A program made the position numbers and the translations under genes. From Beroe forskalii (Eukaryota; Ctenophora; Nuda; Beroida; Beroidae), in NCBI GenBank assembly GCA_011033025.1, contig WFMF01000003.1:868001-932000 (forward strand): a stretch of DNA of 64,000 nt, read 5' to 3'. Under the pieces are notes generated by a model. That model saw only the letters and a program-made list of their open reading frames with translations, was not told the origin of the DNA and ran no database searches. Below are positions 5,769 through 49,251 of the stretch, piece by piece; positions within the stretch are counted from its first letter, which is position 1, and every line of letters begins with the position of its first letter.

Positions 5769-7140
5769 GTAAGATTTAATAAACTTAATTTCAACTTAAT
5801 ACGTGCTTATTAACGATTGAACATGTTATTTTGCCATTGCCAAATGATATTTGATACTCTGTAAGTCTGTATAATCAAGTACCACAGTTTAGTATCTTGC
5901 TTTATGAGAATTCTGAGAAGAGCTGAAATGTGCTGGCCCCAACTCTGAGTCTCACATCTGTTGAAAATGACAAAGCAAATTATCCCGGGTTAATTACATT
6001 TCTGTTGAATTGATTCCATGTGGCGCTGTATTTTTAAAGATTTAAACATAGTGTACAACTGTAGGATTTTAATTTCCCTTCAATCACAGACGAAAATGTA
6101 CATTGGTTAGTGCGTTAGTGGTTCTGGTGTTGGCCTTACACTGGTTCTGTTTTGTGAGTTAGTGGTTCTGGTGTTCCCTATTAACTTATTAAACTGACAC
6201 TGGAACTGGAATATAAAACATGGAACTGCTATTTAATACAGCTACTGTGTCTAATGCTGGTAGTGGTATACTATTAAAACACACCATGAACAATGCCAAG
6301 TTTCATACACAGAGAGTATTGTCATTGTGTGTTGTATCACATATCAGATGAGCCGGTGTGTGTGTGTGTGTCTCCTTTATTATGACAATGTGACTGTGAC
6401 GATTGTATTGTTATGATCTCGTAGAGATCAACTTGTAGAATTAGTTCGGTTATATAAAATCAAGGTGCCCTCACATGATATTTAATAAATAATTAACACG
6501 TAAGAGATTAACATTTAGATAATGTAGCCCAGTAATTACGATCAATGATATAATTCTCAATTATAAGATGCCAAGTCCTGCATGTGGAGATGTAGCTATA
6601 CAGTAATTACAATAATGCTAACTCTGCCACTTTAATAATTGTTTACTATACATTAATCTTATGGCAGGTGACCGAGTTTGATTAATCTACTGTCATTAAT
6701 AACGAGCAATCTTCTCTGAAATGCATACTTGCTTATTATCAAGTTCTCGCTATCAGTAGTATTAGAATCCGACTACCAAGGTTATAGCTTGGCACGTGTC
6801 TGATTTTGCATACTTTATCAATGGCAGGAGTATTATTGACCTCTGTAAGAACTAGGACTTGAGGAACTCCATTGATAATATCATTTTAGGTTAAGTTAAT
6901 TATACAAGTAGCAAGTTGGTGTTTTTAAGATGCCCTGAAAGCGGCCCTACGGACAAAATCCCCATTGTTTTCCCTGAGATGGCTGCAGGGCACATGACAG
7001 CGCCCTGATTTAACATTGACCTAAGTAAATCACAATCAACGACTCCCCAAACCCCGTAAATTCTTTGCTGTTCTTATATGTTTATATTCTTTTCGCTTTC
7101 ATGGTTGGAGACATAAACTTCATTAATCTATCTGTTTCAG
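5769..7140 (+). other. Intron, no embedded gene seen
   Basis: AT-rich sequence between two exchanger exons. It has a (GT)n run at about 6355-6371 and nothing else that I recognise. Confidence 0.6.
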
Positions 7141-7284
7141 TTTTGGTTTCGGAGCGCTGATCTCAGCAGTAGATCCGGTGGCAACTCTCGCCATATTCTC
7201 AGCCATTGATGTGCACCCGACTCTTTACATGCTGGTGTTTGGGGAAAGTGTTCTCAACGACGCAGTCTCCATTGTCATGACAGA
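7141..7284 (+). CDS. SLC9A8: NHE8-like sodium/proton exchanger, core exon
   Basis: Acceptor TCTGTTTCAG, donor GA|GTAAGT. It encodes [19 protein letters not shown]...[23 protein letters not shown]. The DPVA and [13 protein letters not shown] motifs belong to the transport core of CPA1 Na+/H+ exchangers. ISAVDPVAT together with [15 protein letters not shown] points to NHE8 rather than to NHE6/7/9 or the plasma-membrane NHEs. NHE8 proteins exchange luminal or cytosolic H+ for Na+/K+ in Golgi, endosomal and apical membranes. The Asp of ISAVDPV and the E/D pair of GES.LND are present. The donor is repeated several times just downstream. Confidence 0.9.
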
Positions 7285-7435
7285 GTAAGTGATGTCATGT
7301 GTTGTCATGATAGAGTAAGTGTTGTCATGTGTTGTCAGGACGGAGTGAGTGTTGTCATGACAGAGTGAGTGTTGTCATGTGTTGACATGACAGAGTGAGT
7401 GTTGTCATGTGTTGTCATTCGACAGAGTAAATAAA
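7272..7435 (+). repeat. 30-bp tandem repeat copying the exon 3' end and donor
   Basis: About six units of GTTGTCATGACAGAGTGAGT plus GTTGTCATGT. The first unit is the real exon end (ATTGTCATGACAGA|GTAAGT). Later units keep GA|GTAAGT or GA|GTGAGT, giving several potential donors in a row. The last unit is degraded (CAGAGTAAATAA). Confidence 0.85.
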
Positions 7436-7969
7436 GTGATTCAACTTTCTGAAAAAATGAATGCTTCAGTCAACTCTAGTTCAGTGAATGCCTCAAAGTT
7501 TGAGCTATTGGTGTGTACACCAGACGTGCCTAAATTTTCCTGCTTTGACTTTTAAAACTTTAAATATAGAAACCACTAGCTGAGTTTAAAAATAGGAAAG
7601 GAAATCGATAGTATTTAACCCCTTATAAATTCTTGGTATTTTTAAATGGCCGATATAATATCTCAATTCGGTATTTAGTGTGGTATACTTTAATGATGCG
7701 GACACGGAGTGTTTCCTAATTTCAAAAGTTCAAAATACCCCACATACAGTTTATTAGCGTGTAGGGAAATAGGAAAGACGTCACATAGTACACCTCAGCA
7801 AGTTGGTAAATATAGGTAAATATAGGTAATTACCGTCAAGAATCAAGAGGCGTGGCCTATGAATTAGAGATGCCTTGCAAATCCGAAAATTTGCAGTTAT
7901 GGCATCTATGTATTATCATGAACTGGACCCTTAAGGCTATCTACTCATCTAACCTACTCCTTCCCTCAG
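7436..7969 (+). other. Intron, no embedded gene seen
   Basis: AT-rich intronic sequence. Pyrimidine-rich DNA leads into the acceptor at 7967-7969. Confidence 0.5.
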
Positions 7970-8018
7970 CACTATCATCCACTTCAACGACACAGAAGCA
8001 GGGAGTGCCATTGGCTCC
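7970..8018 (+). CDS. SLC9A8: NHE8-like exon, first (truncated) of two tandem copies
   Basis: Acceptor CTTCCCTCAG, then C ACT ATC ATC CAC TTC..., giving TIIHFNDTEAGSAIGS in phase with the preceding exon (GA+C = Asp). The copy breaks off into a C run at about 8019, where the second copy continues with CGCGTTCGGGGAC. It looks like a duplicated exon start, acceptor included. This copy keeps the reading frame through the Gly-Ser-Ala stretch. The more complete copy has an extra base. Confidence 0.6.
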
Positions 8019-8057
8019 CCCCCCCCCGCCGCTTATCTAATATACCCCTCCCCTCAG

Positions 8058-8158
8058 TACGATCATCCACTTCAACGACACTGAAGCAGGGGAGTGCTAT
8101 CGGCTCCGCGTTCGGGGACTTCTTCCTCTCCTTCAGCATGAGTGGAGTAGTAGGCGTG
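8058..8158 (+). CDS. SLC9A8: NHE8-like exon, second copy, with a 1-base frameshift
   Basis: Acceptor CCCCTCAG, then T ACG ATC ATC, giving TIIHFNDTEAG. At about 8090 the copy has GCAGGGGAGTGC where the first copy has GCAGGGAGTGCC. This one extra G moves the frame. After it, the sequence resumes in the expected frame as SAIGSAFGDFFLSFSMSGVV, similar to the membrane segment that follows [11 protein letters not shown] in NHE8. The donor is uncertain (GTG|GTATTT at 8159 would give phase 0). Either an assembly error or a real disabling change is possible. Confidence 0.6.
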
Positions 8159-8240
8159 GTATTTGCCCCCCCCCTAGCCCCTCCTCCTCAAACATACATT
8201 TCTCCACTGAAGACACCTTCCTCCCCCCGAGTTCTGTCAG

Positions 8241-8391
8241 CACTATTACATGCCTCTTTGCGTACGGTCCGTCTTCCTCTCCTTCAGTATGCAGAGGACT
8301 GGGCATCTGAGCGTCCTCGATCATGGCGATACTATCCAGTGGGATTGTCATGAGTCATTACGCTCATTACAACCTCTCCTTCATGACACAG
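8241..8391 (+). CDS. SLC9A8: NHE8-like exon, with probable frameshifts
   Basis: After CTGTCAG the text resembles ALLHASLRTV. After a frame break near 8290-8310 it reads IMAILSSGIVMSHYAHYNLS and ends MTQ|GTTAGA. That second part is a clear match to the NHE8 helix ...SGIMAILFSGIVMSHY. The exon's 5' border and the middle (YAED/EGLG...) are unsure. At least one single-base indel is needed to join the halves. The 3' end is in phase 0 with the next exon. Confidence 0.6.
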
Positions 8392-8485
8392 GTTAGATCC
8401 AGTGGCATTGTCAGGGTGATTAGTACGCTAATTAATGACACAGGTTAATATGCGGTTTGAAAGGAGGATTAACGTGAATAATGAC
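8330..8485 (+). repeat. Degenerate triplicate of exon end plus donor
   Basis: CCAGTGGGATTGTCA...CATGACACAG|GTTAGA (the real exon end, 8391) is followed by CCAGTGGCATTGTCA...AATGACACAG|GTTAAT and then by AATAATGACACAG|GTCGTT. Each copy places ATGACACAG before a GT. Confidence 0.65.
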
Positions 8486-9541
8486 ACAGGTCGTTATTAC
8501 GTCATTTATGAATGGGCGTGCTGCCAAATTATGTTGAAAAATTGATGAAAATAACCACATATTATTTGACGCGCGGTATAGCAGTGGGCTGTTTAACGCG
8601 CTAATTAGTGCTGCGTTAATTGGCTTAACACACACAAACACACACGCGCGTTTGGTAATTGGTTTCGTCACACGGGTTACTGCACACCTGTAGTAAATAT
8701 GGGTGTGTCGCAATGCCTGGGTTATATGTACAACACCACATTACCCCTCTTACGTCAGGGGTTAAATACTTTAAGATAATGTACCGCAGGCTCTTATTAA
8801 TGTACCACAGGCTCTTATTAATGTACCGCAGCTCCTCCTTGATGTCATGCCATACGTCTTTAAATATCATATACCAAATAGTGCATATTGTTTTGCATGC
8901 GGTACAGTGTTTACTGCACGGTATTATTGTAACTATTGCATTGTCATTATAACATTCAATACACAGAACACAACTCATAGTGCTGGAAGGTGTAAACGGT
9001 TCCCCTCGCTCTTTTAATGACCGGTGCCTGAGGTAATTGACAACACTGCCCCTGTGTGGTAATCATGCAACCCGTAATGTGACGAAGTGGGGTAAATTAT
9101 AGGGCCCCCTTGTCGTGTGGATGTGTGTAGTTATAACAAGTCAGAGGCTATTAATTGAGGTCAACTAACTTTAGATGTGTATAATGTGGTATTGGCTAGG
9201 AAATGACTGGTGGTTGCTGGTGAGGCCGTGAGAATAGCCCGGTACCCGCATAGGTTATTAAACACCACTTAAAAGTAAAGCATACCTATGCCACTTAAAA
9301 CATGCCTGAGATAACACCGACAATCGATGTATGCACACATCCACAGTGATTCACTGCCTCAAATAAACCGACACTCTGTCCCTTGTCTTTCGCATCTCCA
9401 CGCACCCATATGACTCTCAAAAGCTAAAATTGTAAAACTCCTACAGTATGTATGGACTAAACATCCCTACAGTTCAGCTGCAAGTGTTTACTATTCCCAC
9501 TTCTACAGTTCAGAAAGTGTTAACTATGTTCTTCTCTCCAG
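8486..9541 (+). other. Intron, no embedded gene seen
   Basis: It holds a CA-rich microsatellite (about 8627-8650) and a short triplicate of TGTACCGCAGGCTCTTATTAA-type units (8778-8840). No exon is recognised. Confidence 0.5.
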
Positions 9542-9667
9542 GTGACAGTTCAGCAAGTGTTCAGGACCTTTGCCTTCTTAGCAGAGTCGTGTGTGTTCGC
9601 CTACCTGGGTATGGCGATATTCAGCTTCTCTCATTCCTTCCAACCTGCCTTCATAGTCTGGAGCATT
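9542..9667 (+). CDS. SLC9A8: NHE8-like sodium/proton exchanger exon
   Basis: Acceptor TTCTCTCCAG, donor ATT|GTAAGT, 42 codons, phase 0 at both ends. It begins VTVQQVFRTFAFLAESCVFA and continues YLGMAIFSFSHSFQPAFIVWSI. This is the NHE8 segment with T(L/F)RT.AFL.E(T/S)CVFA.LG..IFSF, the helix carrying the conserved Glu of AFLAE. The frame joins cleanly to MTQ of the exon before and to ILCLVGRG of the exon after. The exon is intact. Its last ~28 bases are copied twice in the following intron. Confidence 0.9.
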
Positions 9668-10040
9668 GTAAGTACCTGATTAACTGCTAAACCAGGGTTC
9701 AGCGGTCCTTAGTTACCGCTTTCCTGGGAAGTCTTGGGTTTTACTAAACACTCTTTAGCTTTTACTCCAACCTGCTTTCATAGTTGTAAGAAAACATCCA
9801 GGGTTCAGTCATAATTACCGCTTTCCTGGGAAGTCTTAGGTTTTTAAACACTCCTTTATTAACACTCCAACCTGATTTGAAATTGTGAGTAATAATATCG
9901 TAAATTTTTAAAACTTCTCGTATCAACGCTTTCAACATACTCCCTAAATTTGGTGAGATCAGTTGACTGCTAAACCAGGGTTCAACGCCCCAGAAGTCCT
10001 ACTTTTCTGGGAATTCTTGGGTTTAGCTTTTAGCTTTTAC
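9640..10040 (+). repeat. Three diverged ~120-bp repeats starting in the exon end
   Basis: CCAACCTGCCTTCATAG...ATTGTAAGT at the exon end is echoed by CCAACCTGCTTTCATAGTTGTAAG (about 9765) and CCAACCTGATTTGAAATTGTGAGT (about 9867). Each copy is followed by CCAGGGTTCA and then by CTGGGAA(G/T)TCTT.GGTTT. The copies carry donor-like GT sites. Confidence 0.75.
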
Positions 10041-10260
10041 ACCGTAGGAATTTAATTTCAAAAGGCATTCTTCAAATTCAAATTACTAGGTACTTCACTG
10101 CTTTACTACTTTACTAGGTAGTTCTTTGATTTCTACTATCAATCGTCAGTGCCGTACCCTCGGTACCCTCTCTTTATACCTTGCCCATACCTATTTAGAT
10201 TTTGCCCATAAAAGCGGCACCCCTCCACAGAGGGTTTTCAATCAATCATTCATTCATTCA

Positions 10261-10945
10261 ATCTCCCTAGATACTGTGTCTGGTTGGACGAGGCCTGAAC
10301 ATCACCCTCCTCTCCCTGCTAACCACTGTACCCTCCCTAGATACTGTGTCTGGTTGGACGAGGCCTGAACATCACCCTCCTCTCCCTGCTAACCACTGTA
10401 CTCTCCCTAGATACTGTGCCTGGTTGGACGAGGACTGAACATCACCCTCCTCTCCCTGCTAACCACTGTACCCTCCCTAGATACTGTGTCTGGTTGGACG
10501 AGGACTGAACATCACCCTCCTCTCCCTGCTAACCACTGTACCCTCCCTAGATACTGTGTCTGGTTGGACGGGGACTGAACATCACCCTCCTCTCCCTGCT
10601 AACCACTGCTGCCCTCTAGATAACTGTGTCTGGTTGGACGGGGACTGAACATCACCCTCCTCTCCCTGCTAACCACTGTACCCTCCCTAGATACTGTGTC
10701 TGGTTGGACGAGGACTGAACATCACCACTCCCTCTCCTGCTAACCACTGTACCCTCCCTAGATACTGTGTCTGGTTGGACGAGGACTGAACATCACCCTC
10801 CTCTCCCTGCTAACCACTGTACCCTCCCTAGATACTGTGTCTGGTTGGACGAGGACTGAACATCACCCTCCTCTCCCTGCTAACCACTGTACCTCCCTAG
10901 ATACTGTGCCTGGTTGGACGAGGACTGAACATGCCCTCTCTCCCC
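10261..10945 (+). repeat. 70-bp tandem array of splice acceptor plus exon start, ~10 copies
   Basis: Unit starts are at 10271, 10341, 10411, 10481, 10551, ~10619, 10691, 10762, 10832 and ~10901. Each has CCCTCCCTAG (acceptor) followed by the exchanger-coding 54 bp and ACTGTA. Within the coding part, base differences between complete copies are third-position and silent (TGT/TGC, CGA/CGG, GGC/GGA), apart from small indels. The unit of 70 is not a multiple of three, so reading through the array would shift the frame. Confidence 0.9.
10271..10324 (+). CDS. SLC9A8: NHE8-like exon start, first copy of a tandem array
   Basis: Acceptor CAATCTCCCTAG, then ATA CTG TGT CTG GTT GGA CGA GGC CTG AAC..., giving ILCLVGRGLNITLLSLLT. 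It follows the previous exon in phase 0 (...FIVWSI|ILCLVGRGLN) and matches the NHE8 segment ..LVLFGRAxNI.PLSYLLN. The true 3' end of the exon is hidden because this piece is repeated about ten times up to the assembly gap. Which copy is spliced cannot be told. Confidence 0.75.
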
Positions 10946-11045
10946 NNNNNNNNNNNNNNNNNNNNNNNNNNNNNNNNNNNNNNNNNNNNNNNNNNNNNNN
11001 NNNNNNNNNNNNNNNNNNNNNNNNNNNNNNNNNNNNNNNNNNNNN
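10946..11045. other. Assembly gap (100 N)
   Basis: Exactly 100 Ns placed inside or at the end of the exon-copy array. A fixed 100 usually marks a gap of unknown size, so array length and missing exchanger exons cannot be judged. Confidence 0.95.
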
Positions 11046-15907: not shown

Positions 15908-17750
15908 TTAAACTTGATAAGTGCTACATTCTGCTTTGTTCCTGCACCAATCCAACAGCGAATTATTATTCACTGTTGTGTAGTCTCCCGTTGGCGGGTT
16001 GTCTGGGAATGTAAGCAAAAAATTTGTCAATTTTTGCTTAAACTGCTCCAGGTCTGCTATTTGTGGCAAGCTGCTAGGGAGGCAGTTCCATAATTTTGGG
16101 CCGATCACAGCGAAGGAAGAATCATACAGAGACTGATTATGCTGACTGCTGTGCCTCGAAAGACTAGGAATCTTAGCCTTGATGCCATTACGGGATGGTG
16201 CTGAGAACTGAACATTTACATCATTTTGACAGAGGCCATGGAGTATTTTCCACATTTGGATTATGATGTATCGCTCACGTCTGCGTTGAAGTGACATGAG
16301 TCCAAGACATTTAAGCCGCTGCCAGTAATTGAGATGTTGAACACCATTGATCTTAGAGGTGAATGATCGCTGTACCCCTTCAATGAGCTTTATGTCTTGG
16401 ATTGCTGACGGATGCCAAAGTGGACAGCAGTATTCTAAGTGGCAGCGGACAAGAGACTTGTAGAGCGTTACCATTGTTGTTGAATCCCTTGCTCTAAAAG
16501 CACTAAGGACCCAAGATGCAACAGAGCGAGCTCGCTGGACAATACTACTCAGATGAGGGCGCCAAGAGAGAGATGCTGAAACAGTAACACCTAGGTCTTT
16601 GAGTTGTTCAACTGGGGTGATGGTTTCCCCAGTGGAGACATTGTATGACATGACTTCTGGCATGAATGGTAACTCATATATAGCTGATTTAGGCTTATTC
16701 TTATGGATTATGAGTTCAAATTTGTCTTCATGGAGCATCATATTGTTGGATTTCGACCAGTCAATGACATAGTCTAAATCCTCTTGAAGCAGATGGACAT
16801 CCTGTTCAGAAGATATCTGCTTGGATACACGTGTGTCATCAGCAAAGAAACTGATTTTGGAGTGTATGATGCCATTTTCCATATCATTTATGAAAATGAT
16901 GAAAAGGATAGGGCCTAAGACGGTTCCCTGGGGAACACCACTTATGATGATGGCTAAGAATGAATGGACTCCATTTAGAACTACACTCTGAGGCCGGTTG
17001 GAGAGGAATGACTTGATCCATTCAATGAATTGCTGGCTGAAACCATACCTTTTCAGCTTTTCAAGTAGCAGCCGGTGGTCCACTTTGTCAAATGCTTTTG
17101 CATAGTCCAAGTAGATTGCATCAGTGTCCTTACCAAGGGTAAGGCCTTCAATGATCTCGTCGAAGTGGCTTAACATCTGCGTGAGACAGCTTTTACCAGA
17201 ACGGAACCCATGCTGCTTGCTACTTAGGATGTTATTTTCTTCAAGGTAATCCACGACTACTTTGCGTAGGATACGCTCAAATATCTTCACAACATGTGAA
17301 GTGAGAGTCACTGGCCTGTAGTTGATGACTCTGGCTCTGTCACCCTTCTTGTACAAGGGTGTCACATGGCTACATTTGTAGTACTCAGGGACAATGCCTA
17401 GCCTATAGGACTCAGACCAAATATTTGTGATGGGCTCAGAAAGTTCAGCAGCACAATTTTTGAGCACAATCACAGGCACTCCATCTGGTCCTGCTGCAGC
17501 ATCTGCTTTAATGGAATGAATTGCTGCGATGACATCATCTTTGGAGAAGGAAATATCATAGTCTTGGAATGGAATATGCTTTTCTGGACAGTTGAAACTT
17601 GGCATTTTAAGTTCCGGATTGTTTGGATCACTGAAAACAGATACAAACTGCTTTTGAAGTAGATCAGCAACTCTTTTCTCGTTTGTGACAACTTCATTGT
17701 TTTTTTCAGTGTTATTAATTTCTAATTGTAATTTCTAGTTGTTATTTGCC
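15908..17750 (-). mobile_element. CR1/Jockey-like non-LTR retrotransposon, reverse transcriptase part
   Basis: An open reading frame of 565 codons from the first Met (17605). It is open without a stop up to about 17750 (...NNEVVTNEKRVADLLQ...). It encodes a reverse transcriptase with AAGPDGVP, a YKKGDRARVINYRPVTLTS-type block, YAKAFDKVDH, SGVPQGTVLGPILF and the catalytic FFADD. The post-RT C-terminal part follows. The typical upstream apurinic endonuclease and ORF1 are absent, so the copy is 5'-truncated. The intact frame suggests a rather recent insertion. It ends near 15908, and a near-identical 3' fragment lies at 35098-35705. The catalytic Asp pair is intact. Whether the copy is mobile cannot be said, but it lacks its own endonuclease. 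Confidence 0.9.
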
Positions 17751-21640: not shown

Positions 21641-21699
21641 CAGTGAGTGCGTTGCTATTTTCTTACTCTCTTATCGCAACGTTTATCAGTTAAAGATTT

Positions 21700-22590
21700 G
21701 TGACTGCTGTACATCGTGCAACCTTGTTTAGCATTGAAATGCGTAGTACAATTACATCGCAGTGGGACCCTCAGGACGTAGAGGAATTGAAGAAAAGCAG
21801 TGTGGATCACATCCAGGAGATACTCCAGGAGCTCGGTGTGGAGAGTACGGGGAAACTCAGCATCTTCGTGATCGGCAACCTGAAGAAGGACAGAATTATC
21901 ACGTTACTGCTTGATACTCTCAGTATGCTGGATAACCTGACGTGTCATGTTGTAAACAGCTCATACGCACCCCGTGGTATGACTGCCGAGCTTCTGGAAG
22001 CTCAGAGGAAGATAATCTCGCTCCAGTCAGAGCTACTGGAGTGCAAGCAGGAGAAGTTGGACTCAGTCAAGACTGTATTACAGTCATCAGTGTGCGAGAC
22101 CGTGAAAGAAGAGATCAAATCCTTCAGTGCAGTTGTCCATATTGGTACAGGAGGCTCACAGAAGCCTTTGAGCCAATTGGTGCTGAAGAAATTCGTTCAG
22201 GACATTGTTAAGACTGAAGATCGCGGCAATGACGCCATGACTTTTGGAATGAGTGACGAGGAAAATGAAGACACGAGTGCCAAGGTCAGCGAGCTGTTCG
22301 GTGCGTTGGGGGAGAAACCACGAATCGATGTCTGCAGAGTGGGGAATCATGTTCCCGATGGCTCACCGAGGCCGGTGAAGGTAGTGTCTACGTCCTCGAC
22401 CGTAGCAGATCAGCTGATGCAGAAGGGGAGGAGACTCAGTCATCTGGAGAAGTACAAGAGGGTGTACGTGAATCTGGAACGTTCACTGGAGCAAAGGGAG
22501 CAGCGCAGGGAGCTGGTGAAGGCGGTCAAACGGTTAACGGATTTGGACAAGGATAAGCGTAACTTCATCAGTGTAATTCTGAACATGTAG
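21700..22590 (+). mobile_element. Non-LTR retrotransposon ORF1-like protein (296 codons)
   Basis: An open frame with a Leu/Glu/Lys-rich coiled-coil centre (LLEAQRKIISLQSELLECKQ). Its basic C-terminal part reads VKVVSTSSTVADQLMQKGRR...YKRVYVNLERS and then EQREQRRELVKAVKR. Such a domain is typical of ORF1 RNA-binding/chaperone proteins of LINE-type elements. The start Met is uncertain (21700, or the Met at 21739). The frame ends at TAG 22588-22590, exactly where the reverse-transcriptase part begins in another frame. Confidence 0.7.
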
Positions 22591-24170
22591 GCAACAACCA
22601 GGTCAACAAAAAATTTTGGTCATTCATTAAATCTAGTACAAAATGTGGACGCATTCCTGAATCTGTACAATATAAAGGCAGATACCGTTCTGAAACCCAA
22701 GACCAATGTGATATTTTTAACAAATTTTTCTGTGATCAATTTTCCCAGGCAAGCAAATATGATATTAACTTACAAGATTTCCGGGCCCCTGAGGAATTCT
22801 CTCCTGCGGAAATTTTTAGCTATCTCAAAAATGTCAAGCCTAGCAAAGCCCCAGGACCGGACGGAATTAGTGGGCATATCTTGAAAAACTGTGCCGGCGC
22901 TCTGTGCTTGCCATTTGCACTACTCTTTAATAAGTCTTACCAACTCGGAGAGCTGCCACAGGATTGGAAAAATGCTAATGTAGTACCTATTCATAAAAAA
23001 GGCAGAAAGGACGACGTTGAAAATTACAGGCCCATTTCTCTCACAAGTTTGCACAATATCCTCCATGAAAAATGCAAAGACAAAATTTCTACCCTACAGC
23101 ACGGTTTTTTGCCTAATCGCTCATGCACAACACAAATGATAAATTACGTTGACGCTCTTACGTTAAATCTAAATGATAAAATCTCCACTGATGTTATATA
23201 TTTCGATTTTGCAAAAAGCATTTGATAGTGTTCATCATGACATAATTTTAGAGAAACTGAAATTTTCTTATGGCATCGATGGGTACCTACTGAGATTCAT
23301 TAAAGAATACCTTAAAGGAAGGCAACAGTGCGTATCCATTGATGGTTCTCTTTCAGGCATGTCCCCAGTTCTGTCTGGGGTACCCCAAGGATCTATTTTT
23401 AGGTCCATTGCTCTTTGTCTTGTTTATTAACGATATAACTGAGGTTATTGATATTTCAACCAAGATTCTTCTCTATGCTGATGATATGAAAATCTTTAGG
23501 CAAATAAACAATGAACATGATCGTGTAATCTTGCAACAAGATATCAGCTCTCTCCAAAAGTGGGCTGAACGTAATAAAATGCGTTTCCACCTTGATAAAT
23601 GTAAAGTTCTCAATTGTAAATTAAGTAATAAGGCAAGCAGTAATTTTGAATATTATCTCTATGATACGAAACTTGACTACGGATAACGAAAAGATTTAGG
23701 AGTGCAAGTTATCCCGTCTCTAAAATGGAATGCCCAGCACAAAAAACTACTAAATAAGGCCAGTCAAAAAATTGGCCTCCTGCGAAGAAATTGCTCCTTC
23801 AATAGAAACACCAATCAACGTAAAATTCTATTTTTAGCCATAATTCGGTCACAGTTTGAGCATTGTTCACAAATCTGGAGGCCAGTGCACAAAACAAACA
23901 CTGATAAGTTTGAAGCCATGCAGAAAAGAGCCATTAAGTGGGTTTTCAGTGAAGATTTCTGCAGTTACACTAAATCAGAATACCACCTAAAATTGAAGAA
24001 TCTAGATGTCCTGCCGATGAAGTACAAGTTTGATTATAATGACTTGGTCTTGTTCTATAAGATGTTCAATCATCCAAGCCCATTTTCAAGTATCCCTGGT
24101 TATCTTAGGAAGAAGCACCTCCCCGACCCAAAATTAACTCGATATATACTAGAGTATGTCATCATCTGAT
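22591..24170 (+). mobile_element. Broken CR1/Jockey-like reverse transcriptase, no endonuclease
   Basis: It opens with the pre-RT linker (NKKFWSFIKSSTKCGRIPES), then PSKAPGPDGISG, VPIHKKGRKDDVENYRPISL, YFDFAKAFDSVHHDIILEKL (across a frameshift near 23220), SGVPQGS (second break near 23400), LLYADDMKIFRQ and a post-RT tail. A stop or frame break lies at 23685-23700. Between RPISLTSL and CKDKISTLQHGF a short internal stretch is missing. No apurinic endonuclease lies between ORF1 and RT. At least three frame breaks make this a dead copy. Confidence 0.85.
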
Positions 24171-29717: not shown

Positions 29718-32700
29718 CTCAAATGAATCTCCGCAAAGTTCTGAGCAATTGTTTTCTCGATTTAGAGCTGACGCCTAACAGTATGCGTACTCTCACGTCG
29801 GCAGTGCATGACGCTTTGTATTGCAGCTGTCGTTACAAACTTACAAACAGACAGGCATATCCAATTTAACACTGTCTGACGTCGCAGGGAAATTTAGAAG
29901 AATAGAAGGCATGACCCCTGACGAAAATTAGGCGCTTTGACATGAGCAATTCCTCACTCAAAGTGATAATGACGACATTACTCCAACTGTCCGTGATTTG
30001 TGTGTCACTAGTAATATAGACGTCGAAAGAAGAAGGGATAATTTTAATTTCTACGATAATTCCACCGATAATGAAAATCTCACACGATAATTCAGATAAC
30101 TTCAACATCATAATATAATGAACTGTGTCGAGCAATGATCATTTCGTCATCTCTTTCGCCTGTTTGTATTGCTATCATTATTTTCGGATACGTTATTCTG
30201 TTATGGCAGAACCCTTGTTATGGGCCTTGTTCTTACTTTCCTTATTTTACCTTGGAAAACACAAAGTTTACCGTTGGTCGCGCAGATATAGGTCTTATTT
30301 TCAGAAAATAGGCAGTTGATAGCGTTCTAACCCTTGGCTTGATGTACCCTAGACATATTTGTGACTTCATTAATCGCTAATTATCCCTTCAATTTGTCGC
30401 CGAATCATGTTTACCCGAACGCTCAATCTTAAAAAATAGCTGTCGTGTGATTTGAATTTGATGATCTTGTGATGATTGATGATAATCATTGTGCACTGCA
30501 GGAACTTTGCATGAAAAATGTAAATGTGAATATTGTTTGATGTCGCGTTGTCGTGGGGATATTTATTATAACACACTTGTGTCTTGCTTAATCATCTCAG
30601 CTGCTGCGCTGGCTAACAAAACTTCGTACATTTGATAATACATTTGACAGTAAACATTATACATTCGTAGAGTAAACATTATACATTCGTACATACAGCA
30701 AACATTATACTTTCGTACATACAGTAAACATTATACATTCGTACATGCAGTAAACATTATACATTCGTACATACAGTAAACATTATACATTCGTACATAA
30801 AGAAAACATTACATTCGTAAACATTATACATTCGTACATACAGTAAACATTTACATTCGTACACATGGTAAACATTAAACATTCGTACATACAGTAAACA
30901 TTATACATTCGTACATACAGTAAACATTATACATTCGTACATACATTATACATTCGTACATACAGTAAACATTATACATTCGTACATAAATAAACATTAG
31001 TAATACACATTTACAGTAAAACATTATACATTTGTACATACAGTAAACATTATACATTCATACAGTAAACATACAGTAAACATTATACATTCGTACAAAC
31101 AGTAAATATTATACATTCGTACATACAGTAAACATTATACATTCGTACATACAGTAAACATTATACATTCGTACATACAGTAAACATTATACATTTGTAC
31201 ATACAGTAAACATTATACATTCGTACATACAGTAAACATTATACATTAAACATTATACAGTAAACATTATACATTCGTACATACAGTAAACATTATACAT
31301 TCGTACATACAGTAAACATTATACATTCGTACATACAGTAAACATTATACATTCGTACATACAGTAAACATTATACATTCGTACATACAGTAAACATTAT
31401 ACATTCGTACATACAGTAAACATTATACGTACACATACAGTAAACATTCGTACATACAGTAAACATTATACATTCGTACATACAGTAAACATTATACATT
31501 CGTACATACAGTAAAACATTATACATTCGTACATACAGTAAACATTATACATTCGTACATACAGTAAACATTATACATTCGTACATACAGTAAACATTAT
31601 ACATTCGTACATACAGTAAACATTATACATTCGTACATACAGTAAACATTATTCATTCGTACATACAGTAAACATTATACATTCGTACATACAGTAAACA
31701 TTATACATTCGTACATACATTATACATTCGTACATACAGTAAACATTATACATTCGTACATACAGTAAACATTATACATTCGTACATACAGTAAACATTA
31801 TACATTCACAGTAAACATTATACATTCGTAAACATTATACATTACATTCGTACATACAGTAAACATTATACATTCGTACATACAGTAAACATTATACATT
31901 CCATACAGTAAACATTATACATTCGTACATACAGTAAACATTATACATTCGTACATACAGTAAACATTATACATTCGTACATACAGTAAACATTATACAT
32001 TCGTACATACAGTAAACATTATACATTCAGTAAACATTATACATATACATACAGTAAACATTATACATTCGTACATACAGTAAACATTATACATTCGTAC
32101 ATATATTCGTACATACAGTAAACATTATACATTCGTACATACAGTAAACATTATACATTCGTACATACAGTAAACATTATACATTCGTACATACAGTAAA
32201 CATTATACATTCGTACATACAGTAAACATTATACATTCGTACATACAGTAAACATTATACATTCGTACATACAGTAAACATTATACATTCGTACATACAG
32301 TAAACATTATACAACATACATAAACATTATACATTCGTACATACAGTAAACACATACAGTAAACATTATTCGTACATACAGTAAACATTATACATTCGTA
32401 CATACAGTAAACATTCGTACATACAGTAAACATTATACATTCGTACATACAGTAAACATTATACAGTAAACATTATACAGTAAACATTATACATTCGTAC
32501 ATACAGTAAACATTATACATTCGTACATACAGTAAACATTATACATTCGTACATACAGTAAACATTATACATTCGTACATACAGTAAACATTATACATTC
32601 GTACATACAGTAAACATTATACATTCATTCGTACATACAGTAAACATTATACATTCGTACATACAGTAAACATTATACAATCGTACATACAGTAAACATT

Positions 32701-34428
32701 ATACATTCGTACAGTAAACATACAGTAAACATTATACATTCGTACATATACAGTAAACATTATACATTCGTACATACAGTAAACATTATACATTCGTACA
32801 TACAGTAAACATTATACATTCGTACATACAGTAAACATTATACATTCGTACAGTAAACATTATACATTCGTACATACAGTAAACATTATACATTCGTACA
32901 TACAGTAAACATTATACATTCGTACATACAGTAAACATTATACATTCGTACATACAGTAAACATTATACATTCGTACATACAGTAAACATTATACATTCG
33001 TACATACAGTAAACATTATACATTCGTACATACAGTAAACATTATACATTCGTACATACAGTAAACATTATACATTCGTACATACAGTAAACATTATACA
33101 TTCGTACATACAGTAAACATTATACATTCGTACATACAGTACAGTAAACATTATACATTCGTACATACAGTAAACATTATACATTCATTACATACAGTAA
33201 ACATTATACATTCGTACATACAGTAAACATTATACATTCGTACATACAGTAAACATTATACATTCGTACATACAAGTAAACATTATACATTCGTACATAT
33301 ACAGTAAACATTATACATTCGTACATACAGTAAACATTATACATTCGTACATACAGTAAACATTATACATTCGTACATACAGTAAACATTATACATTCGT
33401 ACATACAGTAAACATTTCGTACACAGTAAACATTCGTACACAGTAAACATTATACATTCATTACATACAGTAAACATTATACATTCATACAGTACGTACA
33501 TACAGTAAACATTATACATTCGTACATACAGTAAACATTATACATTCGTACATACAGTAAACATTATACATTCGTACATACAGTAAACATTATACATTCG
33601 TACATACAGTAAACATTATACATTCGTACATACAGTAAACATTATACATTCGTACATACAGTAAACATTATACATTCGTACATACAGTAAACATTATACA
33701 TTCGTACATACAGTAAACATTATACATTCGTACAGTAAACATTATACATTCGTACATACAGTAAACATTATACATTCGTACATACAGTAAACATTATACA
33801 TTCGCACATACAGCAAACATTATACATTCGCACAGTAAACATTATACATTCGTACATACAGTAAACATTATACATTCGTACATACAGTAAACATTATACA
33901 TTCGTACATACAGTAAACATTATACACCATACAGTTTCTCAAAAGAACGTCATCCGTTTATGGTCATTATGTACGAATACGTCAGATTCTGCCACCATCG
34001 TTTTGACGTCGTGTTTTATGCTTCTTCATTTGTTGTTTTATTTTTGAGTATAAAATCCCTGATTCATGTTGCCCATATTTCTCTTCTCATATTCTAGCTC
34101 GGTAGTTAGACTATCTAACACCCCAATACCCCATTTTATGCCGTTCAGAGTGCACATAATGCCGAGATTTCTAAAGAACGCATCCATTTATGGACATGCT
34201 CGACAAGAATAGATTTTAATTTGTGTGACATTTAGTTCAGCGTAGAGACGGATTAGCTTTTATTGTGGCAGAATTGTTTACTGCTTCCACTGTGCTGCAG
34301 AGTTTCCCTCATCTCTAGATCCATATTTCGTATTTACCACCAACTAGCGTATTTCCGGAAATTAGTGTATTTTCTTTGCATCTCTTTCCTCAATTTTTCT
34401 TTGGAATCCGTTCGAGTTTCCGATATCG
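29718..34428. mobile_element. Large repeated element, copy 1 (left arm, 26-bp array, right arm)
   Basis: The left arm 29718-30647 and the right arm about 33935-34428 are nearly identical to 38872-39818 and 41951-42547. Homology begins abruptly at CTCAAATGAATCTCCGC and ends at CCGATATCG in both copies. The flanks differ on both sides, as expected for inserted copies of one element rather than a simple tandem duplication. There are no obvious terminal inverted repeats and no recognisable protein. Small shared open frames (for example 30125-30319) are frameshifted or changed in the other copy. Confidence 0.75.
30648..33934. repeat. 26-bp minisatellite, ~126 copies (copy 1)
   Basis: The unit is ACATTCGTACATACAGTAAA plus CATTAT. 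It is highly homogeneous, with occasional truncated units. It runs about 3.3 kb, against about 2.1 kb in the second element copy. Confidence 0.97.
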
Positions 34429-34645: not shown

Positions 34646-35097
34646 AATATTATTCACAGAAATCCCCAAACCACAGCTAGATATAAAGTAGGTGTTAAAA
34701 ATATGCGAAAACCCGTTCGACTATTAATTACTTTAGCGAAAGCCGTTCATAACATATCTAAATTAATCACATTCCAGGCTGCGCCTGTCATATAGTAAAT
34801 TTGATATAAATATTTCGTAGCAATATGAAATGACCTTGCATAGTTACGTTATCTATGAATGCACATACAATGGTTCATATTATGTTGCCTTTCTAACCCT
34901 GAGATATGCACGGTCCAAACTACAGCACTTCTGTACTGTAGTTTGTAGATTAAAAAAATATCCTACCTTATCGGACATAATTATCACGGCCATTAAATTC
35001 ACGCTGAGCACATCAGCATACTTACTTGCGTCTGTTTCGTAGAACTTCTACTGGGTCATCACATGTTGTGTCCGCGACTGCCCTAGCAGATTCGCCT
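34646..35097. other. No gene recognised
   Basis: AT-rich DNA up to the 3' end of the CR1-like fragment. Confidence 0.4.
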
Positions 35098-35705
35098 CTG
35101 CTTTGTTCCTGCACCAATCCAACAGCGAATTATTATTCACTGTTGTGTAGTCTCCCGTTGGCGGGTTGTCTGGGAATGTAAGCAAAAAATTTGTCAATTT
35201 TTGCTTAAACTGCTCCAGGTCTGCTATTTGTGGCAAGCTGCTAGGGAGGCAGTTCCATAATTTTGGGCCGATCACAGCGAAGGAAGAATCATACAGAGAC
35301 TGATTATGCTGACTGCTGTGCCTCGAAAGACTAGGAATCTTAGCCTTGATGCCATTACGGGATGGTGCTGAGAACTGAACATTTACATCATTTGACAGAG
35401 GCCATGGAGTATTTTCCACATTTGGATTATGATGTATCGCTCACGTCTGTGTTGAAGTGACATGAGTCCAAGACATTTAAGCCGCTGCCAGTAATTGAGA
35501 TGTTGAACACCATTGATCTTGGAGGTGAATGATCGCTGTACCCCTTCAATGAGCTTTATGTCTTGGATTGCTGACGGATGCCAAAGTGGACAGCAGTATT
35601 CTAAGTGGCAGCGGACAAGAGACTTGTAGAGCGTTACCATTGTTGTTCTAAAAGCACTAAGAACCCAAGATGCAACAGAGCGAGCTCGCTGGACAATACT
35701 ACTCA
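35098..35705 (-). mobile_element. 5'-truncated CR1-like fragment, same family as 15.9-17.7 kb
   Basis: Nearly identical to about 15930-16556: the last ~200 codons of the RT ORF. Differences include a one-base deletion (CATCATTTGACAG for CATCATTTTGACAG) and loss of about 12 bp (GAATCCCTTGCT). The one-base deletion breaks the frame, so this copy is dead. Its shared 3' border with the first copy (AACAAAGCAGA) suggests the element's natural 3' end is near there. Confidence 0.9.
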
Positions 35706-36254
35706 GCATGAATTTAATGTCCGTGAAAATTTTGTCCGTGATACTAAATCCGTGATTTTCAGGTTCGTGAAAATTAAGTCCGGTATTTCCTCTTAAAATT
35801 TCTAGGGCAGAGACGCTAAATTTCTGACTTTATCTCTTTAAACGCAATAATAAAATTTTTAAGGAAGTTACACTTCTTTGTTATGCTTAGAACCTGCAAT
35901 ATGGAAATTTACCATAATTAACGAAATATATTGAAAAAATCTTGAAATCAAGTATTCAAATCTTAGAAAAAAATGGGAAAAATCGAACCGAAAATTTCGA
36001 GATTTTCTTTAAATTTGAAGTGGCAGGATCGAGCGTGAATATTAATGTACGTGAAATTTATGTCCGTGAAACTTAAGTCCGTGATAATTATTTCCGATAA
36101 GGTTTTACATACTCATTGCATTCGTATGTAATAGAGATATATTAATTCCTGGTCTTTCGCTAAAGTACATATAGGTATATGGTTGGTTGGTTGGTTGGCG
36201 ACACCGATTTCAAGAACCTTATTACATGAAATTAAGGTATCATTTAAACGATTT
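35706..36254. repeat. Diffuse GTCCGTGAAA-type repeats
   Basis: ATGTCCGTGAAAATTTTGTC near 35717 and TACGTGAAATTTATGTCCGT near 36047 bracket about 350 bp of AT-rich DNA. There is also a short (GGTT)n run at 36182-36198. Confidence 0.4.
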
Positions 36255-38871: not shown

Positions 38872-41800
38872 CTCAAATGAATCTCCGCAAAGTTCTGAGC
38901 AATTGTTTTCCTCGATTTAGAGCTGACGCCTAACAGTATGCGTACTCTTACGTCGGCAGTGCATGACGCTTTATATTGCAGCTTACAAACTTACAAACAG
39001 ACAGGCATATCCAACACTGTCTGACGTCGCAGGGCAATTTAAAAGAATAGAAGGCATGACCCCTAACGAAAATTAGGCGGTTTGACATGAGCAATTCCTC
39101 ACTCAAAGTGATAATGACGACATTACTCCAACTGTCCGTGATCTGTGTGTCACTAGTAATATAGACGTCGAAAGAAGAAGGGATAATTTTAATTTCTACG
39201 ATAATTCCACCGATAATGAAAATCTCACACGACAATTCAGATGTTCAAACTTCAACATCATAATATAATGAACTGTGTCGAGCAATGATCATTTCGTCAT
39301 CTCTTTCGCCTGTTTGTATTGCTATCATTATTTTCTCGGATACGTTATTCTGTTATGGCAGAACCCTTGTTATGGGCCTTGTTCTTACTTTCCTTATTTT
39401 ACCTTGGAAAACACAAAAGTTTACCGTTGGTCGCGCAGATATAGGTCTTATTTTCAGAAAATAGGCAGTTGATAGCGTCTAACCCTTGGCTTGATGTACC
39501 TAGACATATTTGTGACTTCATTAATCGCTAATTATCCCTTCCAATTTGTCGCCGAATCATAATTGCAGACGCTCAATCTTAAAAATAGCTGTCGTGTGAT
39601 TTGAATTTGATGATCTTGTGATGATTGATGATAATCATTGTGCACTGCAGGAACTTTGCATGAAATGTAAAATGTGAATATTGTTTGATGTCGCGTTGTC
39701 GTGGGGATATTTATTATAACACACTAATTGTGTCTTGCTTAATCATCTCAGCTGCTGCGCTGGCTAACAAAACTTCGTACATTTGATACCTAATACATTT
39801 GAGTTGTACATCTGTTGTACAGTAAACATTATACATTCGTACAGTAAACATTATACATTCGTACATACAGCAAACATTATACTTTCGTACATACAGTAAA
39901 CATTATACATTCGTACATACAGTAAACATTATACATTCGTACATACAGTAAACATTATACATTCGTACATACAGTAAACATTATACATTCGTACATACAG
40001 TAAACATTATACATTCGTACATACAGTAAACATTATACATTCGTACATACAGTAAACATTATACATTCGTACATACAGTAAACATTATACATTCGTACAT
40101 ACAGTAAACATTATACATTCGTACATACAGTAAATATTATACATTCGTACATACAGTAAACATTATACATTCGTATTGTACATACAGTAAACATTATACA
40201 TTCGTACATACAGTAAACATTATACATTCGTACATACAGTAAACATTATACATTCGTACATACAGTAAACATTATACATTCGTACATACAGTAAACATTA
40301 TACATTCAGTAAACATTATACATTCGTACATACAGTAAACATTATACATTCGTACATACAGTAAACATTATACATTCGTACATACAGTAAACATTATACA
40401 TTCGTACATACAGTAAACATTATACATTCGTACATACAGTAAACATTATACATTCGTACATACAGTAAACATTATACATTCGTACATACAGTAAACATTA
40501 TACATTCGTACATACAGTAAACATTATACATTCGTACATACAGTAAACATTATACATTCGTACATACAGCAAACATTATACATTCATACATACAGTAAAC
40601 ATTATACATTCGTACATACAGTAAACATTATACATTCGTACATACAGTAAACATTATACATTCGTACATACAGTAAACATTATACATTCGTACATACAGT
40701 AAACATTATACATTCGTACATACAGTAAACATTACATTCGTACATACAGTAAACATTATACATTCGTACATACAGTAAACATTATACATTGTACATACAG
40801 TAAACATTATACATTCGTACATACAGTAAACATTATACATTCGTACATACAGTAAACATTATACATTCGTACATACAGTAAACATTATACATTCGTACAT
40901 ACAGTAAACATTATACATTCGTACATACAGTAAACATTATACATTCGTACATACAGTAAACATTATACATTCGTACATACAGTAAACATTATACATTCGT
41001 ACATACAGTAAACATTATACATTCGTACATACAGTAAACATTATACATTCGTACATACAGTAAACATTATACATTCGTACATACAGTAAACATTATACAT
41101 TCGTACATACAGTAAACATTATACATTCGTACATACAGTTAACATTATACATCTGTACAGTAAACATTATACATCTGTACATAAACATTATACATTCGTA
41201 CATACAGTAAACTTTATACATTGTACATACAGTAAACAGTATTCATTCGTAAATAAGTAAACATTATACATTCGTACATACAGTAAACATTATACATTCG
41301 TACATACAGTAAACATTATACATTCGTACATACAGTAAACATTATACATTCGTACATACAGTAAAGATTATACATTCGTACATACAGTAAACATTATACA
41401 TTCGCACATACAGTAAACATTATACATTCGTACATACAGTAAACATTATACATTCGTACATACAGTAAACATTATACATTCTTACATACAGTAAACATTA
41501 TACATTGTACATACAGTAAACATTATACATTCGTACATACAGTAAACTTTATACATTCGTACATACAGTAAACATTATTCATTCATACAGTAAACATTAT
41601 ACATTCGTACATACAGTAAACATTATACATTCGTACATACAGTAAACATTATACATTCGTACATACAGCAACATTATACGCATACAGTAAACATTATACA
41701 TTCGTACATACAGTAAACATTATACATTCGTACATACAGCAAACATTATACATTCTTACATGTAAACATTAACAGTATACATTGTACATACAGTAAACAT

Positions 41801-42547
41801 TATACATTCGTACATACAGTAAACTTTATACATTCGTACATACAGTAAACATTATTCATTCGTACATACAGTAAACATTATACATTCGTACATACAGTAA
41901 ACATTATACATTGTACATACAGTAAACTTATACATTCATACATACAGTACCAGGGCATATTGTGCTCATGTCTCTGTGTTGTACGTCATATTGTACGTCA
42001 GGCGTCAGCCCCACCAATTTGTCAGTCATTATGTACGAATGCTTGTGTAACTGGGCATTATTAATAACCCATTTGATAACTTGCTCTGCCACCATCGTTT
42101 TGACGTCGTGTTTATCAACAGCTTCTTAGGAGTATTTGTTGTTTCATCGCCATGTTTTGAGTATAAAATCCCTGATTCATGTTGCCCATATTTCTCTTCT
42201 CATATTCTAGCTCGGTAGTTAGACAGTAGACTATCTAACACCCCAATACCCCATTTTATGCCGTTCAGAGTGCACAAAATGCCGAGATTTCTAAAGAACG
42301 CATCCATTTATGGACATGCTCGACAAGAATAGATTTTAATTTGTGTGACATTTAGTTCAGCGTAGAGACGGATTAGCTTTTATTGTGGCAGAACTGTTTA
42401 CTGCTTCCACTGTGCTGCAGAGTTTCCCTCATCTCTAGATCATATTTAGTATTTACCACCAACTAGAGTATTTCCGGAAATTAGTGTATTTTCTTTGCAT
42501 CTCTTTCCTCAATTTTTCTTTGGAATCCGTTCGAGTTTCCGATATCG
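38872..42547. mobile_element. Large repeated element, copy 2
   Basis: The arms are nearly identical to 29718-34428. The left arm is 38872-39818, the 26-bp array is 39819-41950 and the right arm is 41951-42547. Its right end lies about 100 bp before the first recognised exon of the TMCC-like gene. Point differences and small indels against copy 1 disrupt the small open frames. Confidence 0.75.
39819..41950. repeat. 26-bp minisatellite, ~82 copies (copy 2)
   Basis: Same unit and orientation as 30648-33934. Variant units (TTGTACAT, CTTACAT) cluster at its right end. Confidence 0.97.
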
Positions 42548-42648: not shown

Positions 42649-42911
42649 ATGAGCTTCAAGTTAGCTGCCGTCCCTCGGAGAACCTCCATAGCAACTTTCC
42701 ACGTTGCCCCAAGCAACAGTAGCAACCATGGCTCCCCCTCGGAGAGTAACAACAACTCCCCCTCGCCCAGCCTCTCCTCCATCTCCTCCCCCCGCAGTGG
42801 GCGGCAGAATAGGGGGGCCATGACAAGGGCAGACACTGCCCCCGTAGGGCTGTCTTTCAGTGGTCCTGCAGCTAGAGACAAGGATGCAGCTTCCTTCCTT
42901 GTCATGAACGG
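42649..42911 (+). CDS. TMCC-like gene, first recognised exon (Ser-rich)
   Basis: From ATG at 42649 it reads MSFKLAAVPRRTSIATFHVA and then a Ser/Asn/Pro-rich tract to ...ARDKDAASFLVMNG, ending at donor GG|GTGAGA with two bases over. A pyrimidine-rich CTTTCTCCTTTGTTTCCGAAG precedes the ATG. The ATG may therefore be either the true start or an internal Met of an exon beginning at 42649. PRRTSI and RTSF-like motifs (in this and the next exon) look like kinase or 14-3-3 sites; that is inference. The reading frame is clean and composition contrasts with the surrounding AT-rich DNA. Its link to the later exons rests on strand and order. Its phase does not match the next exon, so an exon may be missing between them. 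Confidence 0.55.
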
Positions 42912-43275
42912 GTGAGAGATTAATGCAGGGGACATATTATAGCTGGATTAGGGTTTAGTAATTAGACGGGTGAGAGATTGATAGAATGCAGGGGACATAT
43001 ATTATACCTGGATTAGGGTTTAGTAATTAGACGGGTGAGAGATTGATAGAATGCAGGGGACATATATTATAGCTGGATTAGGGTTTAGTAATTAGACGGG
43101 TGAGAGATTGATAGAATGCAGGGGACATATATTATAGCTGGATTGGTTTAGTAATTAGACAGGTGAGAGATTGATAGAATGCAGGGGACATATATTATAG
43201 CTGGATTAGGGTTTAGTAATTAGACGGGTGAGAGATTGATAGAATGCAGGGGACATATATTATAGCTGGATTAGG
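42909..43275 (+). repeat. 65-bp tandem repeat copying the exon donor, 6 copies
   Basis: The first unit starts in the exon end (AACGG|GTGAGAG). The others start GACGGGTGAGAG or GACAGGTGAGAG near 42966, 43031, 43096, 43159 and 43224, followed by ATGCAGGGGACATATATTAT and so on. Each unit therefore brings a plausible 5' splice site. Confidence 0.9.
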
Positions 43276-43848
43276 GTTTTGAACACAGAGCGAGGATTGG
43301 GTGCTTTCATTCAACCATGGAAGCAAAGTTGTGTTCCACTTTTAAGGTGATGGGTACCAGGACAGGTTCCAAAGTTAGGTCAAGTGACCAAACCAGGTAT
43401 CAGGTATACCAACCATTGCTGTTATTCCTGGCCTATATTTACTTGCTAATAATAAGCATAACTCTATGTCTATATGTATATCTGGATATGACCTGTCACG
43501 TCACAATATCAACTATTTATCCACATCAACTATTCGTTCAGGTGATTGTAGAAGTCTCATCAATCTAGCCCTTTTAATTATTCTTTTTCTTAAAAACCTG
43601 CCAAACCAAAACTTGTCAGTTTATAAATCAATGCACACCAAATCAAGCATAAGGAAAATAAACGTTTTCAATTTCTGGTATCTCATGTTTATGCGAGACA
43701 GCAAAACTAGCATCTTCTACTTAATGACAATTAATATCTTGTTAATCGTGGTAACGTCACCCTGTATAGTCAACCCAGGCCCTTGTTCAAGGCCTTTAAA
43801 AGTTTTCTACAATAATGTACAGGGTTTTGTGAACCCAAATCACCTTAA
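43276..43848 (+). other. Intron, no embedded gene recognised
   Basis: Open frames at 43317-43568 and 43466-43894 lack support. The end joins the G run of repeat B. Confidence 0.4.
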
Positions 43849-47097: not shown

Positions 47098-47169
47098 TCC
47101 GGTATGGTGTAGGGGCTAGCATCTGTGGCTCTCACCCACAAGACCCGGGTTCGATTCCCGGTATCGGAA
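47098..47169 (+). tRNA. tRNA-Glu (anticodon CTC)
   Basis: A full cloverleaf. The acceptor stem TCCGGTA (47098-47104) pairs with TATCGGA (47162-47168, one G-T) and is followed by discriminator A. The anticodon arm TGTGG/CCACA has loop CTCTCAC, with CTC at 47131-47133. The T arm CCGGG/CCCGG has loop TTCGATT. The B box is GGTTCGATTCC (47148-47158). A T5 run at 47172-47176 provides a Pol III terminator. No intron, and no encoded CCA, as in eukaryotes. It sits inside an intron of the TMCC-like gene on the same strand. Confidence 0.92.
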
Positions 47170-48167
47170 CATTTTTCCAAACATTTTGCTAAGTTATTTA
47201 CAAATCAAAATCGGCGTGTCTCAGTCAAATGAATAATGATTTGGCAATTATCTTTCAATATTGTATTTCATATCAATTTCATATAACTTATGTGTTCTTG
47301 AATGCGCGTATATCAGCCGGATAGTTGTGTATTTAGAAAGAGTAATTCGATACCTTGCAAGGGTTTCTCTCCTGTAAAAGTAATGTAGCATTCACTAAAT
47401 CACCTTCTGTCACGAGCACATACGGATAACGCCATCAATTCTCCATTTTAAGCCGTGGAAATGACGTAGCCCTCAGACGCCTCTAGTAATTGCAGCTTCC
47501 CCTGGTGAGTGACGCGCGGTGGATATGTGCATGATATTTATTATGTGTCACGTGATGGTGATTTGGCTAATTCTATTATGTTAAAGTGACACATCCCGGC
47601 CGGCGGATGATGTTTGTGTGTAGGAGTTTGTTTCCCGTTTAGAGGTGATTGTTCATGTTAAAAACTTAAAAAGTATCGAAACCAAGTATGAATGTTGTGA
47701 CTTGTGGTATTAAAAAGGGCGTGACTGCTATTAAACCTGTTACCTGTTGACAATTCCCCATTAAACAGTGATGATACTCAATACTCATCTATAAATAGCA
47801 TGACTTATTATTGTACACTGTCCATTCACTTGAGTGTACAGAATAGTACACTAGTCGTGCTGATGTTTAGAATCTTCTTGTTGCCACGTAAACTCATGAT
47901 GATGACGTCATATGAAGCTACCTACCATCTGCCACGTTGTGAGAAGAGCTGATGTGTACAAAGAGACTGCATATTGTGTACTTCGAGAGTTTAAAGTTCT
48001 AAGTCTACATTCAAAGTGTTATATTTTTCAATCATATGGATTCATTCACTACTCCAAGAAATACGTCTAGTATAGCAGATTACGGATACCTTTCACACCT
48101 GATGACCATTACATGCCATAATATGTTATTTTATAGACTTATATTCGCAAATTACTAAATTGGACAT
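47170..48167 (+). other. Intron, no embedded gene recognised
   Basis: Mixed AT-rich DNA with no repeat I recognise. Confidence 0.4.
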
Positions 48168-49194: not shown

Positions 49195-49251
49195 TGACGA
49201 GGAAGAGGGAACTCACGTGACAGCAGAGGATTTCGAGACCAACTCAGACCG
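49195..49251 (+). CDS. TMCC-like gene, small acidic exon (57 nt)
   Basis: Acceptor CTTATTATTTCAG, donor CCG|GTTAGT. It continues the acidic stretch of the exon at 46774 as SDEEEGTHVTAEDFETNSDR. The first and last residues are completed across the junctions (AG+T and CG+A), so phase is consistent on both sides. Confidence 0.75.

Follow-up and report, generated by a model that had tools for sequence, protein, structure and literature searches.

In amphioxus globin genes, minisatellite-like tandem duplications of exon-intron borders, named mirages, have been described on both the acceptor and the donor side, with parts of the exons included (PMC3087553; this and the papers below are cited from excerpts). 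The same paper cites Adh3 and further mirage loci, and PMC3902484 adds PGBD5 and cites troponin C. For some of these amphioxus genes, reverse transcription-polymerase chain reaction provided evidence against interference of the copies with splicing (PMC3087553; PMC3902484). Here we analyzed a window of 64,000 nucleotides (contig WFMF01000003.1, positions 868,001 to 932,000; the window is this whole stretch), in which a fragment of an NHE8-like gene carries tandem arrays at its predicted splice borders. These arrays are probably mirage-type minisatellites, that is, short border duplications that were tolerated, spliced out and then amplified, a reading to which we assign a probability of about 0.68.

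As summarized in Table 1, six of the seven intron ends of the NHE8-like fragment, comprising all six ends of its three fully visible introns, were found to have their own tandem border copies, namely the donors 7284, 8391 and 9667 and the acceptors 7970/8058, 9542 and 10271. In a local test, in which the intronic flank of each of 16 junctions in this fragment and in a second predicted gene was shuffled 1000 times and scored for copies of the exon end, no shuffle reached the score at six junctions (donors 7284, 8391, 9667 and 42911; acceptors 8058 and 9542), and acceptor 7141 was without border copies (555 of 1000 shuffles reached its score). The array at acceptor 10271 is plain, and its failure in the same test (607 of 1000) arises because its copies lie 3' of the first copy. 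Tandem copies, located in part with Tandem Repeats Finder (TRF), were confirmed at all five junctions named in the initial annotation. Of these, 7970/8058 is a single duplicated acceptor and not two exon edges; the sixth border, acceptor 9542, had been absent from the annotation.

The copied exonic part ranged from about 4 bases (42911) up to about 60 (10271 and 8391), and the copies on the intron side have deletions and shifts of frame. At donor 8391, the array 8334-8434 (offset 63) copied about 58 exonic bases with a gap, and the motif 'atgacacagg' near this donor recurs at 8481. The stretch after exon E3 holds four GTRAG donor motifs, one per copy (9668, 9786, 9885 and 9953), where about 0.5 would be expected. 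The 70-bp array at 10271 includes ragged units at 10612, 10683 and 10893. Acceptor 9542 is the weakest evidence among the six copied ends, its self-match score of 23 being below the window-wide threshold of 30, so that it was detected by the local test alone.

The identity of the fragment was assessed by tblastn with a human NHE8 sequence as query, and all exon borders given here are predicted. Matches were obtained at 7139-7282 (77% identity), 8227-8430 (44%, with a stop) and 9539-9670 (57%), covering NHE8 residues 190-237 and 295-387; the remaining matches over the window had E values of 0.4 or worse, and no clear NHE8 match was found in the window 3' of a 100-N gap (10946-11045) that directly follows the 70-bp array. 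In Pfam only E1 was matched, with no match for E2, E3 and the other NHE8-like exon pieces, and E3 matched PDB chains of NHE6 (E 6e-5) and NHE9 by sequence. Each 70-bp unit begins with an acceptor followed by coding sequence reading ILCLVGRGLNITLLSLLTTV, which, going by the human NHE8 query, we take to belong directly after E3; it would extend the coverage to residue about 405. The NHE8-like 'gene' is a four-exon fragment with one exon broken, ending in an assembly gap, and the earlier statement that arrays occur throughout the gene applies to this fragment only. Within 8121-8291, an exonic pyrimidine-rich stretch ending in AG recurs 151 bp downstream, just before the NHE8 homology resumes, which is possibly a new internal acceptor or exon damage.

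The anatomy of these arrays was in good agreement with that of the described mirages. Units spanning the border together with the splice signal were found at donors 7284, 8391, 9667 and 42911 and at acceptors 8058, 9542 and 10271. As in mirages, the units of different loci also appeared unrelated to each other: when nine array blocks were compared in 36 pairs, with the 70-bp array represented by two units and the 22-bp array by its first 351 bases, even the closest pair was reached by 2 of 100 shuffles. The globin mirages of BflGb6 and BflGb9 likewise have border-spanning units with splice signals and exon parts on both sides, and the exclusion of their boundary units from homogenization is counted here as common to the window arrays, which are known from sequence alone; they differ in having 150-160 bp units and one affected border per gene, whereas the window shows six borders, an intron that is array nearly wall to wall, and units of about 20 to about 120 bp at the NHE8 borders (PMC3087553). 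In lancelet PGBD5, imperfect repeats (60 and 108 bp) lie over splice sites at two places, at exons 3 and 4, which resembles the window, although fewer borders are affected there and the copy number varies between assemblies (PMC3902484). Branchiostoma Adh3 has units of 10-72 bp that, like the units in the window, cross a splice border, and somatic length instability was reported there (Canestro et al. 2002, cited in PMC3087553). Introns of amphioxus VCBP3 resemble the window in holding complete or partial neighboring exons, some with splice sites, but in the excerpts of PMC2632668 these copies are not described as tandem border arrays.

The link to amphioxus mirages drawn in the initial annotation was therefore right as a resemblance, the anatomy being the same as in Branchiostoma (PMC3087553; PMC3902484). 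Its suggestion that acceptor-side and exon-body copies would extend the mirage picture has to be dropped, because both papers, as excerpted, already describe acceptor-side, exon-including copies in amphioxus. What goes beyond the described mirages is the density, with every end of three consecutive introns affected. Were the host something other than a lancelet, border arrays would in addition be more widespread than described in the excerpts of the mirage papers. No genome-wide survey of border arrays was found among the matches listed for the open-licence literature, and the excerpts of PMC2206037 mention tandem repeats and assembly errors and not border copies.

To be counted as an array, a segment had to reach a window self-comparison score of at least 30, the top scores of three Markov-shuffled windows being 29, 25 and 30; 33 tandem arrays were so defined. 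Repeats are so common here that lying in one is unremarkable: the arrays cover 19,816 of the 64,000 bases, and a tandem copy adjoined 690 of 2981 random points (31 of the 2072 that fell outside arrays). The repeat-membership test was indeed weak (8 of 17 junction points scored at least 26, versus 31% of window positions). The remarkable part is that array edges coincide with splice sites beyond chance in the window. Seven of the 33 arrays begin or end no more than 30 bp from one of the 17 junction points, compared with 1.04 expected, a number reached by none of 5,000 random placements and none of 3190 circular shifts (maximum 5). The excess was present at the NHE8 junctions alone (4 arrays versus 0.48 expected, p 4e-4) and in the second gene alone (3 versus 0.56, p 0.012), these p-values not being those of a blind test because the window was picked after border arrays had been noticed in it. 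Together with the 36-pair comparison, this bears out the earlier observation that the arrays are unrelated in sequence but alike in position.

Such independence of the arrays bears on the model in which introns are born by tandem duplication of exonic AGGT segments (Rogers; Gao and Lynch, as cited in the excerpts of PMC3087553), the arrays being remnants of intron birth. Intron 3, flanked by copies of both adjoining exon ends, and intron 49252-50266, which is nearly all array, would suit this model, but it predicts related ends, whereas the 5' and 3' arrays of each NHE8 intron are unrelated, and we regard it as highly improbable.

In the mirage-type reading, a short piece of DNA across a splice border, comprising a few to about 60 exonic bases and adjoining intron, would have been duplicated in tandem, presumably by slippage or unequal exchange. 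An open mRNA could come only from the copy that adjoins the intact exon, and the intron-side copies, being spliced out, would escape selection and expand, contract and decay like an ordinary minisatellite. One edge of the array would be clamped by the exon, so that it should sit at, or just inside, the border. At both E1 (7284) and X1 (42911, in the second gene), reading through the first donor leads to an immediate stop, as does the use of a downstream donor; these predicted stops, like the copies, their position and their mutual independence, can be read from the sequence itself. For eight of the ten acceptor copies in the 70-bp array, reading on met a stop within 22-55 codons in seven and ran into the gap in the eighth. 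Considering these stops, only the exon-edge copy would be expected to give the normal message, leaving the intron-side copies free to vary.

Without the four second-gene junctions that had been noticed via their arrays, the edge excess was weaker, at 4 versus 0.79 (p 0.004) within 30 bp and 2 versus 0.41 (p 0.06) within 15 bp, and at the NHE8 junctions alone no array edge lay within 5 bp of a junction. Several points weigh against the mirage-type explanation. All arrays were read from one assembled sequence, and the NHE8-like locus is broken and lies beside a gap, so that part of it could be pseudogenic or mis-assembled. A weak hint comes from the acceptor copies at 7970 and 8058: their 5 substitutions in 49 exonic bases are all synonymous (P 0.0017 if neutral, with a transition bias of 4; a post hoc value), along with one inserted G, which is unexpected for a free-running intronic copy. 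Finally, tolerance and clamping alone do not explain why borders outnumber intron interiors as array starts.

This last point is where active seeding of duplication by the splice border, as suggested in the initial annotation and conceivably through a U1-bound donor, a pyrimidine tract, an R-loop or a nucleosome edge, would come in. We nevertheless consider it unlikely, because 25 of the 33 arrays had both edges more than 60 bp away from every predicted junction, five of the nine second-gene junction points had no array edge within 15 bp, and tolerance through splicing combined with clamping by the exon accounts for much of the anatomy. The excess of edges at junctions, the involvement of six of the seven NHE8 intron ends including both ends of every fully visible intron, and the GTRAG kept in each of the four diverged copies between 9668 and 9953 do speak for seeding. 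The donor motif alone does not act as a seed: counting both strands, 10 of the 45 GTRAGT sites away from splice junctions were accompanied by tandem copies, but every one of these lay within an array, and four were units of the array at 7284. If borders did seed duplication, a single, countable origin would underlie changes in intron length, repeats at exon edges and the gain of introns in such genomes.

The synonymous bias was less clear in the other arrays. In the 70-bp array, 3 of 4 variants common to at least two units were synonymous (P 0.14), and 6 of 14 when all substitutions were taken (P 0.41), many of the rest lying in two ragged units; combining the two acceptor arrays gave P 6e-4 when shared variants were used and 0.03 when all substitutions were. 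At donor 7284, four different substitutions were counted by eye in the 13 exon-derived bases of the copies, and one of the four is synonymous. The bias could stem from sequence exchange between the copies and the working edge or from alleles that were mixed in the assembly. We think it quite unlikely that this genome has duplication hot spots at its splice borders, with almost all intron ends of an active gene gaining arrays of their own and acceptor-side copies swapping with the working exon edge by unequal exchange or gene conversion, so that the spares stay protein-coding as a store for repair or variation. Should synonymous-only acceptor differences hold elsewhere, they would offer a cheap test of such exchange.

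Allele mixing belongs to a further explanation, in which the arrays are an artefact of assembly or of haplotype merging at a difficult heterozygous locus. The synonymous-only differences at 7970/8058 do resemble differences between alleles, and the frame errors in E2, the ragged units of the 70-bp array and the gap right after it point the same way. However, arrays as old and diverged as that at 9639-10043 (73-77%) are not produced by joining two haplotypes, and similar repeats in B. floridae are reported to have held up when Sanger data were re-examined and new Illumina data added, although copy numbers differed between assemblies (PMC3902484, as excerpted). We thus judge the artefact to be very unlikely as the source of the arrays. 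In practice, loci with border arrays are likely to be mis-assembled and mis-annotated.

The second predicted gene had been described as TMCC-like with the same habit of border duplication. Its array at 42911 is real, but the TMCC name was unsupported, as the Pfam and PDB comparisons identified no protein family (its product matched nothing in Pfam above the cut-off and nothing in the PDB at an E value under 0.05). The ends of X2 and X3 are not copied in the intron between them (994 and 806 of 1000 shuffles reached the score), which therefore holds an intronic array abutting both splice sites, without the border-spanning unit of a mirage. At donor 63256, the local test gave a 15-column match with only about 2 exonic bases (11 of 1000 shuffles). 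No border copies were detected by the local test at acceptors 49195, 50267, 58059 and 63113 (57 of 1000 for the last) or at donors 49251, 50353 and 58440. The exon-like stretches 58059-58440 and 63113-63256 do not join by phase, and exons between them would therefore be missing.

Table 1. Predicted exons and border-associated arrays in the window.
Feature	Position	Strand	Description
Exon E1, NHE8-like	7141-7284	+	NHE8 residues ~190-237; donor GTAAGT at 7285; Pfam PF00999, E 2e-11
Donor array of E1	7272-7430	+	30-bp unit (one unit 20 bp), ~13 exonic bases + GTRAGT; 5-6 units, TRF 5.6
Duplicated acceptor with ~50 exonic bases	7944-8107	+	Exon starts 7970 (copy 1) and 8058 (copy 2), 88 bp apart
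Exon E2, NHE8-like, disrupted as assembled	8058-8391	+	Frame broken by an extra G near 8089; TGA stop in frame at 8308-8310; donor 8391 at its 3' end
Donor-side copies of E2 end	8334-8500	+	2-3 diverged copies, offsets 52-63 bp
Acceptor-side copies at E3	9455-9561	+	ACAGTTCAG..AAGTGTT three times; two short copies upstream of acceptor 9542
Exon E3, NHE8-like	9542-9667	+	Residues ~344-387; tblastn 57%; open frame, phase 0
Donor-side array of E3	9639-10043	+	Diverged copies, 73-77% over two long matches; local test 0/1000
70-bp acceptor array	10263-10945	+	CTCCCTAG acceptor + ~60 coding bases (ILCLVGRGLNITLLSLLTTV); 9.8 units; ends at 100-N gap
Exon X1, second gene, predicted	42649-42911	+	Open frame in phase with X2 and X3
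65-bp donor array from X1	42908-43279	+	Copies of ACGG followed across the border by GTGAGAGATT; ~5.6 units; local test 0/1000
Exons X2 and X3, predicted	49195-49251; 50267-50353	+	One open frame together with X1
Intron X2-X3	49252-50266	+	C-rich array 49261-50262, starting 9 bases after X2 and stopping 4 bases before X3
22-bp array	63255-64000	+	TRF 33.8 copies; starts at donor of predicted X5 (63113-63256); runs off window

The presumed intron after X3 contains an 18-bp satellite (CGCTGATGAGTGACTAGG, about 140 copies, 50681-53204), which keeps one minus-strand frame open for 733 codons. Two 11-bp arrays, GCCAGTATCAC (58717-58931) and TGATACTGGCG (59253-59319), are mutual reverse complements apart from the choice of start. 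In a Pfam scan of plus-strand translations with stops as X (three frames for 1-7.2, 11-21 and 53.2-63.1 kb; a single frame for 43.3-49.2 kb), only Extensin_1 appeared, below the cut-off and on a repeat.

A direct duplication (29868-34321 and 39013-42441, about 8-9 kb apart) shares two flank segments, one of 230 bp (97% identity) and one of 215 bp (99%), and its second copy ends upstream of the predicted X1. Both copies hold long arrays of a 26-bp satellite (30647-33926 and 39818-41949), for which no exact match was found in viral contigs. Apparent remains of non-long-terminal-repeat retroelements were located at 15908-17734 on the minus strand (608-aa open frame, PF00078 E 1e-30), with a truncated relative at 35048-35829 on the same strand, and at 21694-24169 on the plus strand (several frames, PF00078 below the cut-off at E 0.037). 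A tRNA-Glu (CTC) gene at 47098-47170 was the sole tRNA reported by Rfam and ARAGORN.

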